This document shows, piece after piece, positions 21,189 through 24,645 of a DNA stretch of 47,784 bases. Position numbers and translations under genes: made by a program. Numbering within the stretch: the stretch's first letter is position 1; each line of letters starts with the position of its first letter. Source of the DNA: Clostridia bacterium. GTDB taxonomy: Bacteria; Bacillota; Clostridia; UBA1381; UBA9506. Under the pieces are notes generated by a model. The model worked only from the letters and a program-made list of their open reading frames with translations. It was not told the origin of the DNA and ran no database searches. The stretch lies in the NCBI GenBank assembly GCA_017546245.1, contig JAFYXI010000001.1:1-47784 (forward strand), given 5' to 3'.

Positions 21189-23555
21189 TTATTGTTCATT
21201 TAAAATGATTGCTTCTGTTACAGGTATGCAGTTTTGCAAATCTTCCCATAACAGAATTTTTGCGGTGTCGTACGATTTTGTACTGGTAAAGTTGATGTCT
21301 TCAAATTCAAACCTAACCGGTTGCATATCAACTAATTTATTGCCTGCATAAAGCGCAAGAATTATCTTACAATCTTCTTTGGTATCAATTAATTTTACCG
21401 AATAACCATCGAATGTTACACATTGAAAAAAGATTTTTTCGGCATTGACAAACGGCGCGTTGCTTCCTTCGATTATAATTTCGTTAAATTGTTTTTCTGT
21501 TCCGTGATAATATACAGTCGCTAAAGAAGAGCAACCGTCAAATGCCTGATTGCCAATGCTTGTTATGCTGTCAGGAAGTGTTATGCTTGTTAAATTGCTG
21601 CAATTCAAAAAGGCAGAGCTGCCGATAGCTGTAACCGCATAACCGTCTAAAACATCAGGAATTATTACTGCATTACCCGAAATTAATGTATCCACAGCAG
21701 TAATTGTTACTTTTCCGTCTTTTACTGTGTAGGTGTAACTGCCTGAGCTTTGAGATTCTTCTTCGTATTCATAATTGTAGATAATGTTTGCATTTTTAAA
21801 ATAATTATTGCCTGAGTAAATATAAAGGCTGTTAAACTTTTCTTCCGTGCCTTCGTAATATACCGTTTCTAATGATACACAATCTTTAAATGTGTAATAA
21901 TCTATTTCGTACATAGATTTGGGTACTACGATTGTTTTAAGGCTTGAGCATTCTGAAAATGCATAAGAAAGAACTGCCTCGAGGTTTTGGGGCAGAACCA
22001 CATTTTCTAAATATGTATTGTGCCGAAATGCACTGCCGCAAATATAATTCACATTTTGGGGAACGGTATAGCTCGTATCAGTTTTTTTTGCAGGATAACA
22101 AATAAGATTACTTCCGCTCACATTAAATAACACACCGTCAATAACTACAAAATCTTTATTTCCTTCTTCTATGTTTATTACCTTCAGATTTTTACAATTA
22201 AAATCGCCGTGAATACCTACTAAATCTTTATTTAGTGTAATAGTTTCGAGATAATTCGAGCTAATTCCAGGTCCGTAAATCACATCGATGTCTTCGGGAA
22301 GCTTATACGATGTATTAGTTTTGCCCATTGGGTAACATTCAAGAAATTTTTCTCCGAAAGCAGTCTCTCTGAAAAGAACACCGTCTATAGAGAAATACCA
22401 GTTATTTCCCTCTTCTACAAATATATCCGTCAGCAAAGGACAATCGTTAAATTCTGAATATCCAATACTCCAAACTGTAGAAGGAATTGAGATTGAGGTT
22501 ATGTTTTTACAATCTCCGAATCCGCTAATGCCTACAACGGGATAACCGCCCAAGGTTGCAGGAATGACAACATCGCCCGATATAGATTCATCCACAGCCC
22601 AAATCACAGCTTCGCCTGAGCTTACAGAATAGCTATAGCAGTCAGGATCTTCAGGCTCTTGTGTGGGTTCAGGCTCAGGGGCAGGCGATTCGCTGTCAGG
22701 ATTATCTTCAGCAGAATCGTCATTTAGTATCGAACCATCCGACAGGATTATTTGTGCATTCAGAAAACTATCGTTTCCTTCGCTTATCTTAATAGCCTCA
22801 AAATCTGCTTTTAAGCCTCCGAAATATACCGTTTGAAGTGCCGTACAATCACAGAATGCATCTTGGTTGATGGCAGTTACGCAAGATGGTATTGTAATTT
22901 TAGTAAGTGCTGAACATTCCCTGAATGCAGAATTACCGATTTTGGTTACTTTGTCGGGAATGGTTACCGTTTTAAGACTCGTACAACCTCTAAATGAAGA
23001 GCTGCCGATTTTGGTTACATTGGCAGGAATTTTAATACTTTTTAACATATTGCAGTTTTCAAAAGTATATTCAGGAATTTCTTTTATATTTTTAGGAAGA
23101 GTGATTACCTTTAATGCCGAACAATCTTTAAAGGCACATCTGTCGATTTCGGTTACACTGTCGGGTATTGTGATGCCCAACAAAGCTGTACACTTAAAAA
23201 ACGCATAACCGCCCAACGATTCAACAGTTTCGGGAATTGTAACATTTTTTAAAGCCGAGCAGTTTCTGAATGCATAATCTCGGATTTTAATAACTCCTTC
23301 GGGAATTAAAACATCAGTCACAAGAGTGCAATCCATAAAAGCAGAATTGCCGATTTCGGTCAACGGATAACCGCCAAAAGAATCAGGAACAGTAATAATG
23401 CCCGACGCAGAAGTATCTACATCGGTAAGTATTGCTTCATCAAACGAAATTGTATAATAAAATACCCCCTCTTTAACAGCACCTACAGGCACCGCACCGA
23501 AAAACGACATACACATTATAATAAATAAAACAATTAACAAAAGCTTTTTTGTCAT
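21189..23555 (-). CDS. Secreted leucine-rich-repeat (BspA-like, LRR_5) protein
   Basis: 788-aa exported protein. A signal peptide occupies residues 1-26 (KKLLLIVLFIIMCMSFFGAVPVGA). Then come many 23-residue LRR_5 repeats of the type IPDSVTEIDRCAFKDCSAL, in three blocks. Each block opens with a beta module of the form Y-T-V-x-D-G-x-x-I/V...GDVVIP..GYPV near residues 30, 310 and 605. A proline/glutamate-rich linker (PAPEPEPTQEPEDPD) separates blocks one and two. No LPXTG or SLH anchor is seen. BspA-like proteins bind host or surface proteins in other species; the role here is unknown. Own promoter and ATG 23555 behind AGGGTGA. Confidence 0.88.
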   Translation of the reverse strand: MTKKLLLIVLFIIMCMSFFGAVPVGAVKEGVFYYTISFDEAILTDVDTSASGIITVPDSFGGYPLTEIGNSAFMDCTLVTDVLIPEGVIKIRDYAFRNCSALKNVTIPETVESLGGYAFFKCTALLGITIPDSVTEIDRCAFKDCSALKVITLPKNIKEIPEYTFENCNMLKSIKIPANVTKIGSSSFRGCTSLKTVTIPDKVTKIGNSAFRECSALTKITIPSCVTAINQDAFCDCTALQTVYFGGLKADFEAIKISEGNDSFLNAQIILSDGSILNDDSAEDNPDSESPAPEPEPTQEPEDPDCYSYSVSSGEAVIWAVDESISGDVVIPATLGGYPVVGISGFGDCKNITSISIPSTVWSIGYSEFNDCPLLTDIFVEEGNNWYFSIDGVLFRETAFGEKFLECYPMGKTNTSYKLPEDIDVIYGPGISSNYLETITLNKDLVGIHGDFNCKNLKVINIEEGNKDFVVIDGVLFNVSGSNLICYPAKKTDTSYTVPQNVNYICGSAFRHNTYLENVVLPQNLEAVLSYAFSECSSLKTIVVPKSMYEIDYYTFKDCVSLETVYYEGTEEKFNSLYIYSGNNYFKNANIIYNYEYEEESQSSGSYTYTVKDGKVTITAVDTLISGNAVIIPDVLDGYAVTAIGSSAFLNCSNLTSITLPDSITSIGNQAFDGCSSLATVYYHGTEKQFNEIIIEGSNAPFVNAEKIFFQCVTFDGYSVKLIDTKEDCKIILALYAGNKLVDMQPVRFEFEDINFTSTKSYDTAKILLWEDLQNCIPVTEAIILNEQ

Positions 23556-23619: not shown

Positions 23620-23686
23620 GTAAAATGCTTTGTTAGTGCATTAAAAACCGACATTTCTTCTTTTTTAGGTGGGTTCACTTTTTATA

Positions 23687-23715
23687 TTGATTTTTATTTC
23701 TTTATTTGTTATAAT
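23687..23715 (+). promoter_or_regulatory. Promoter of the candidate structured RNA
   Basis: TTGATT (23687-23692) and TATAAT (23710-23715) with 17-bp spacing. The predicted start at about 23722 is exactly at the foot of the long hairpin. Confidence 0.7.
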
Positions 23716-23720
23716 AAACT

Positions 23721-23880
23721 TGCGACGTAAATTAATATAATCATTAAGAATGCGTGTATTTTTATACCTTCGGTAAAAATGCATGCTCTATTTTCACATG
23801 CTTCTTAATGATGTTGAAAATTTGCGTCGCAGCGAGAGTTGTGCATTTTTCGGTGCATCGGCTCTCGGTGCACCTTTTTT
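23721..23880 (+). ncRNA. Candidate novel structured small RNA with intrinsic terminator
   Basis: No ORF fits this interval. Stem P1 pairs TGCGACG-TAAATT (23721-23733) with AATTT-G-CGTCGCA (23819-23831), 13 bp with one G-U. After a symmetrical 6x6 internal loop, P2 pairs ATCATTAAGAA (23740-23750) with TTCTTAATGAT (23802-23812). It continues as GCGTGT/ACATGC past a bulged U and ends in a small hairpin around ACC-TTC-GGT. Next, GGTGCA (23852-23857) pairs with TGCACC (23869-23874) followed by six Ts, a terminator. CGAGAG/CTCTCG (23833-23838/23862-23867) is a mutually exclusive alternative. Known families such as 6S, tmRNA, SRP and RNase P were not recognised. Confidence 0.6.
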
Positions 23881-23961
23881 GTTTTACATATAAAACGGTG
23901 CACCTTGCAGGCTCTGTTATTGCGACACAAAAGAACCCACCTTTTTAGGTGGGTTCACTTT

Positions 23962-24645
23962 TTATATTGATTTAATACTACTCTTATGCCCGGTCAGACT
24001 TACAATTTCGTCCTCATTGGTCGAAACCGGCATATCTATTGTAAAGCTGTAATTTCTAAGACCGTCTTCTTCAGAAAAGTCAACCGAAACATCGTGTATA
24101 TTAATATTTCGTTTTTTAAACTCTTCCATCAGATATTTTTGGTATCCCTCTTCTTTTACACCCTTTATGATAAGCTTTTTAGGTCTTATTCTTTTGTTTT
24201 TATGAAAATTAAGATGCAAAATAATCTGAGCAATCAAAATTATAAATGTAGCAGAAATACCTATTATATAAAGACCCGAGCCGATTGCCATACCGATACC
24301 CGAGGTTGCCCATATTCCTGCCGCTGTTGTTAAGCCTGTTATTGTGTTTTTATGCACAAAAATCATACCTGCGCCCAAAAAACCTATTCCGCTTGCTATG
24401 GTCGATGCCACACGCGACGGGTCAAGACGAACATCTGCCGCGTGAAACGCAGAATCTGTTACCAAATCAAAAAATGCATACTTAGAAATTACCATCATAA
24501 GTGCCGCACCGCAAGCCACAACAAAATGCGTGCGCACACCTGCCTCTTTAGAGCGGTTTTTTCGCTCCATACCAACAATCATACCACAGATTCCTGCAAG
24601 CAGAATTCTTGTTATGTACTCTACCTGCTGCAAATCCCAAAACAT
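23962..24645 (-). CDS. MgtC/SapB family membrane protein
   Basis: 227-aa membrane protein. The N-terminal half has about four to five hydrophobic segments with the family signature LLAGICGMIVGMERKNRSKEAGVRTH and IASGIGFLGAGMIF. The C-terminal half is a soluble, ACT-like domain (residues about 150-227). MgtC proteins affect F-ATPase activity and magnesium-limited growth in some pathogens; in Firmicutes the role is poorly known. ATG 24645 is behind AAAGGAGA. Its 3' end is part of the 32-bp direct repeat. Confidence 0.88.
   Translation of the reverse strand: MFWDLQQVEYITRILLAGICGMIVGMERKNRSKEAGVRTHFVVACGAALMMVISKYAFFDLVTDSAFHAADVRLDPSRVASTIASGIGFLGAGMIFVHKNTITGLTTAAGIWATSGIGMAIGSGLYIIGISATFIILIAQIILHLNFHKNKRIRPKKLIIKGVKEEGYQKYLMEEFKKRNINIHDVSVDFSEEDGLRNYSFTIDMPVSTNEDEIVSLTGHKSSIKSI

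Follow-up and report, generated by a model that had tools for sequence, protein, structure and literature searches.

What kind of RNA is transcribed from its own promoter, folds into a long hairpin and ends at its own terminator, with no gene behind it? The question arises in a clostridial genome, between a BspA-type LRR gene (21189-23555, - strand) and mgtC (23962-24645, - strand), where a first-pass annotation made from the sequence alone had proposed an unannotated structured RNA gene with no co-directional gene downstream. The gene layout is as proposed, as the LRR gene is divergent and mgtC convergent. All coordinates refer to the window, that is, the whole 47,784-nucleotide stretch that was analysed. 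We put at roughly 0.7 the probability that this locus is one of the many copies of a new family of clostridial transcription attenuators with a pseudoknot, RNAs resembling orphan riboswitches.

Promoter, hairpin and terminators of the window copy

The promoter (23687-23715, + strand) comprises a -35 TTGATT, a 17-bp spacer, an extended TG and a -10 TATAAT (10/12 consensus matches), and places the transcript start at the foot of the hairpin, as had been suggested. Because such patterns are not above chance in AT-rich DNA (8 found versus 10.8 expected in shuffles), the case for the promoter rests on comparison among homologous copies. A promoter with ≥ 9/12 matches lies at the same position in 137 of 155 copies, compared with 6.7% in shuffled upstream sequence; the extended TG is found in 149 of the 155, and the spacing from promoter to the first stem is nearly constant.

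The structured core (23721-23831, + strand) has a minimum free energy (MFE) of -42.0 kcal/mol (z = -8.5), or -61.7 (z = -7.0) with the terminator included, and in neither case was any shuffle as stable. The predicted fold contains the 13-bp stem P1 (23721-23733 with 23819-23831), the symmetric 6x6 internal loop and the 11-bp stem P2 (23740-23750 with 23802-23812), all as first described. The third stem, P3, also exists, but the 6 bp originally assigned to it fall short of the 14 pairs in the MFE structure (23752-23765 with 23773-23786). P3 joins a U-rich 5' side, which we call segment A (23752-23774), to segment B (AAAAATGCATGCTC, 23775-23788). Outside P1 follow segment C (GAGAGTTGTGCATTTTT, 23834-23850) and terminator 1 (23852-23880), an intrinsic terminator made of the D:E hairpin (23852-23874) and the run of six Ts (23875-23880) already recognized; a terminator occupies this position in 151 of 153 copies. 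Promoter, hairpin and terminator thus hold constant positions relative to one another across the 155 copies.

Beyond terminator 1 lies a 3' tail (GGTGCACC..GCAGGCTCTGTTATTGCGACACAAAA, 23897-23932, + strand) whose sequence complements C and the 3' strand of P1, moderately supported by a duplex energy of -24.2 kcal/mol, and then a bidirectional terminator 2 (23933-23956, both strands) shared with the convergent mgtC. The first-pass annotation had overlooked this tail and second terminator, as well as the pseudoknot and the multicopy nature of the RNA described below.

Covariation of the core

Compensatory changes are abundant in P1 and P2. In a sequence-only MAFFT alignment, which uses no structural model, P1 is 99.2% paired and 8 of its 12 pairs are compensated, with variants such as GCGACAC, GCUACAC, GCCAAAC and ACCACAC each answered on the opposite strand. 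Over the core as a whole, pairing extends to 93.0% of cells, compared with 39-50% in slid-strand controls, and both sides have changed in 31 of 35 pairs; these values come from a model-based alignment of 116 matches that, unlike the MAFFT alignment, leans to the covariance model and includes a few antisense matches to the same hairpins. G-U cells far outnumber A-C cells (315 versus 29), and the RNA strand is therefore the + strand. Few unpaired residues are strictly conserved; the exceptions are the internal-loop AAUA and a U-rich joint, where the conserved unpaired stretch is CUCUAUUUUC. Together with the conserved promoter and terminator, these compensatory changes and the strand bias bear out the proposal of a structured RNA with its own start and end. 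A protein-coding reading was rejected, as open reading frames over the region vary in frame and sequence among copies, and the alignments, inspected by eye, revealed upstream of the terminator no conserved ORF with a ribosome-binding site (RBS) of the kind found in leader-peptide attenuators.

A multicopy family of Clostridia

A covariance model (R1) that we built on 32 copies finds at least 18 copies in the 2.0-Mb genome of origin (E < 1e-9). A DNA search of the same genome gave more than a dozen sites besides the window copy; identity at the stronger ones is 73-85%, and several form tandem pairs spaced by 235-335 bp. In the order the model has hits in 66 of 95 genomes, and in a sample of the class in 74 of 391. 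In a phylum-wide sample of 398 genomes, where a stricter limit was applied, the genome of origin alone scored. Most named records that contain the conserved stretch come from gut metagenomes and are assemblies of Clostridia and Oscillospiraceae; one is labelled Bacteroides, which we take as a binning error. A human faecal record, MT835845.1, also contains a copy, directly ahead of a gene that looks like one for a lipoprotein. Although labelled 'Bacteriophage sp.', it is probably a mislabelled bacterial contig, as its ORFs look bacterial (by eye, resembling those for Clp ATPase and YicC). A narrow test of phage origin by three pattern scans of IMG/VR returned nothing, and plasmids gave no match.

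That the RNA matches no known family was borne out by Rfam 15, which had no match above gathering threshold in the window; other families at relaxed thresholds gave only weak, sub-threshold matches. In 20 loci with homologous copies, Rfam reported only tRNAs and one unrelated Gut-1 RNA elsewhere in the loci. This Gut-1 RNA (RF01706, 72.7 bits) lies at L216:1855-1926 (- strand), near a family copy in a clostridial genome; when described, Gut-1 was listed as found only in human gut sequence (PMC2864571). Our literature search found no description of the element, though an unnamed entry in the supplementary tables of a metagenome screen (e.g. PMC8040213) is possible. Judged by this comparative evidence, it is a real RNA family, previously uncatalogued and absent from Rfam. 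A strongly covarying regulatory RNA would thus have been missing from that collection despite its presence in about a fifth of the sampled Clostridia genomes.

It had also been suggested that the RNA could be a divergent 6S RNA. The long rod with internal loops and the stand-alone location with its own promoter are indeed shared with 6S RNA, which usually occurs in one or two copies per genome. However, the genome encodes a separate, canonical 6S RNA (C47:66744-66928, 95.7 bits), the RF00013 covariance model has no match in the window at gathering threshold or E < 10, and the new RNA is present in at least 18 copies. On these grounds we reject the 6S idea.

Origin of the window copy

The window copy has an orthologue beside mgtC in a related genome, G002, with 86% identity over the unit and additional compensatory changes; no copy adjoins those mgtC genes that were examined in G001, G015, G018 and G019. 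In the window, the mgtC 3' end and half of its terminator (23942-23973) are duplicated as an exact 32-bp direct repeat (23662-23693) 280 bp away, before the promoter, where the left copy overlaps and supplies the -35 element. The exact repeat was not seen in the G002 orthologue. The likely course of events is a local duplication with subsequent loss.

This repeat, the multiple copies and the tandem pairs are also what might be expected of an element that acts as DNA and not as RNA, either a plain repeat or a MITE-like mobile element. Yet the copies diverge widely in sequence while keeping their pairing, the G-U bias is strand-specific, promoter and terminator are conserved, the orthologous copy has been kept beside mgtC in G002, and most copies are without a shared target-site repeat, all of which makes a DNA element very improbable. 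Transposition as such was considered and set aside, as there is no consistent target-site duplication.

A pseudoknot and a chain of competing helices

Besides its pairing with A in P3, segment B (AAAAAUGCAUGCUC) can pair with GAGUnnUGCAUUUUU in segment C, directly 3' of P1. In the structure-free alignment, pairing in this 14-bp B:C helix reaches 97.5%, with 7 of the 14 pairs compensated and P1 intact in the same rows; none of 500 shuffles reached the observed pairing of P1 and B:C jointly. At the variable B:C positions of 105 copies, we counted 479 pairings within copies versus 420 ± 5 when partners were swapped, the maximum of 2000 shuffles being 442. With B located within P1 and C beyond it, the helix is either a pseudoknot or a replacement for P2 and P3. 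B:C alongside full P1 and P2 demands a sharp bend, and it might therefore form only once P2 opens.

Segment C has a second partner. The CGAGAG/CTCTCG pairing that was said to compete with the terminator stem exists as the C:D helix and is part of the MFE structure, where it occurs together with the predicted A:B helix. Mean duplex energies over 150 copies are -10.5 (A:B), -15.2 (B:C), -14.9 (C:D) and -15.3 kcal/mol (D:E), the last three being nearly balanced. The first three helices all lose strength when one partner is taken from another copy, A:B falling to -8.7 and C:D to -10.8 kcal/mol. A mutually exclusive terminator and antiterminator are thus both conserved, the former in 151 of 153 copies, as in an attenuator or riboswitch platform. 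From this chain of competing helices of similar strength, we infer the logic of a transcription attenuator.

Leader and stand-alone copies

The copies differ in what lies behind them. In an ORF-based survey, about a third (54 of 155) lie within 160 nt of the start of a same-strand gene, measured from P1, as 5' leaders would, and many of these downstream genes have a clear RBS. About half (73 of 155), the window copy included, face a convergent gene, do not occupy a leader position and look like stand-alone RNAs. The original statement that the RNA is not an ordinary leader thus holds for the window copy but not for the whole family.

Genes behind leader copies encode mainly surface or secreted proteins: BspA LRR_5, SLH and Cu_amine_oxidN1 proteins and ABC transporters by Pfam, proteins with lipoprotein-like signal sequences by eye, and small uncharacterized proteins. 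They are diverse and point to no single ligand. Among the small proteins, one family of 42-59 aa (MEETNYKELYY...) follows leader copies at six loci (L047, L154, L155, L156, L174, L181; L155 has three copies in tandem), and a second (MNIKVELLKNY..., 77 aa in complete copies) follows them at five, spread over several genomes (L064, L182, L183, L194, L243); for each family, the member scanned had no Pfam match. Leaders at L254 and L257 precede short cysteine-rich proteins (...CCCDECNYLCCC...) that are possibly peptide precursors.

Stand-alone copies often have a tail beyond terminator 1 that resembles the P1 5' strand, followed by a second terminator. The complementarity of this tail to C and the 3' strand of P1 averages -18.1 kcal/mol, versus -14.0 in shuffled sequences and -14.1 in leaders. 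Pairing with the tail's own copy is only slightly better than with a swapped copy (-18.1 versus -16.9), so that the tail may work in cis or on other copies in trans, or in both ways. Strict cis pairing with its own P1 was rejected on these values and because the tail of the G002 orthologue no longer fully matches its own P1. In genome G041, four stand-alone copies (L158, L166, L169, L186) have a good RBS and a micro-ORF M..LKIP-stop (e.g. MRLKIP*) just after terminator 1 and ahead of the second terminator.

Might the family then consist of constitutive trans-acting small RNAs, in which the terminator merely ends the RNA, the alternative pairings serve folding, and the leaders are read-through fusions of small-RNA promoters to genes? 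The 73 copies that face a convergent gene have no adjoining co-directional gene, their tails could pair with the P1 3' strands of other copies, and the U-rich stretch is conserved and unpaired, all in keeping with such a role. We nevertheless think it unlikely, since 54 copies have a same-strand gene at most 160 nt away, in many cases one with a clear RBS, and covariation specifically maintains the C:D antiterminator and B:C, both needless for a constitutive small RNA.

Proposed mechanism

For the attenuator reading, we propose that each copy would be transcribed from its own promoter, with P1 and P2 as a scaffold holding segments A and B. While A:B holds, C would be free to pair with D as antiterminator, and RNA polymerase would read through; when B:C pairs instead, D would be freed, terminator 1 would form and a short RNA of ~160 nt would be released. 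A trigger, which might be a metabolite, an ion, a protein or the speed of RNA polymerase, would set the balance between the helices. We infer both the switching and its direction from the helices themselves. Elsewhere the switch would serve as a 5' leader to genes whose products are secreted or surface proteins; the window copy, with no gene behind it, would yield either the short RNA to terminator 1 or a read-through form of ~235 nt to the terminator shared with mgtC.

One specific version of the trigger, overlapping with this reading, is a dedicated protein that shifts the balance by binding the P3/B region, the RNA being a site for protein-dependent antitermination or an RNA chaperone and the stand-alone copies titrating the protein. 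The high copy number, the stand-alone and tandem copies, and the scarcity of strictly conserved unpaired residues besides AAUA and the U-rich joint would suit such a site. We found no candidate protein, however, and no gene that consistently accompanies the copies, and we regard a protein trigger as possible but not favoured.

About half of the copies have no evident controlled gene, which is unusual for an attenuator and raises the puzzle of why a transcription switch should be maintained where no gene follows it. Under the attenuator reading, the stand-alone copies would most likely be decoys for the trigger or small RNAs. A wider and rather doubtful extension would be a gene-control RNA class restricted to Clostridia (mostly known from gut metagenome assemblies), with a single signal sensed by as many as 18 or more copies in a genome, leaders controlling surface proteins, and stand-alone copies with P1-like tails acting in trans. 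If true, these copies could be trigger decoys or antisense strands that open P1 on the leaders, forming a regulatory network made of RNA only. The family would in any case offer an entry point to surface-protein control in poorly cultivated gut Clostridia, and an orphan-ligand problem that is directly testable in vitro.

Comparison with known RNA systems

Fluoride, ZTP/pfl and preQ1 riboswitches are leaders in which the 3' strand of a pseudoknot extends into the expression platform, where antiterminator and terminator exclude one another. The new RNA shares this arrangement with those that act by termination, but differs in its long 14-bp pseudoknot helix, in having no Rfam covariance match and in that half of its copies control no gene. 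By its architecture it looks made to act as a pseudoknotted attenuator or an orphan riboswitch, and a ligand is what would make it a riboswitch class proper. As in the trp and his leader attenuators, adjacent segments pair alternately and the last helix is an intrinsic terminator; unlike in those, no conserved leader peptide is seen, P1 lies at the transcript start, and five segments are combined with a P1/P2 scaffold.

The c-di-GMP-I riboswitch occurs many times over in a clostridial genome and frequently regulates surface and extracellular proteins, and in both respects (on general knowledge of that class) the new family resembles it. RF01051 has a single match in the genome of origin, at a separate site (C34:7833-7915) that is a genuine c-di-GMP-I riboswitch, while the family copies are unmatched. 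We rejected c-di-GMP as the ligand, given that the genome encodes GGDEF proteins and already has the known aptamer.

Finally, CsrB titrates CsrA. Although the new RNA differs from CsrB/RsmZ in being without a known protein partner, its stand-alone, multicopy members could, as a functional speculation, titrate the trigger of the leader copies as such decoys do.
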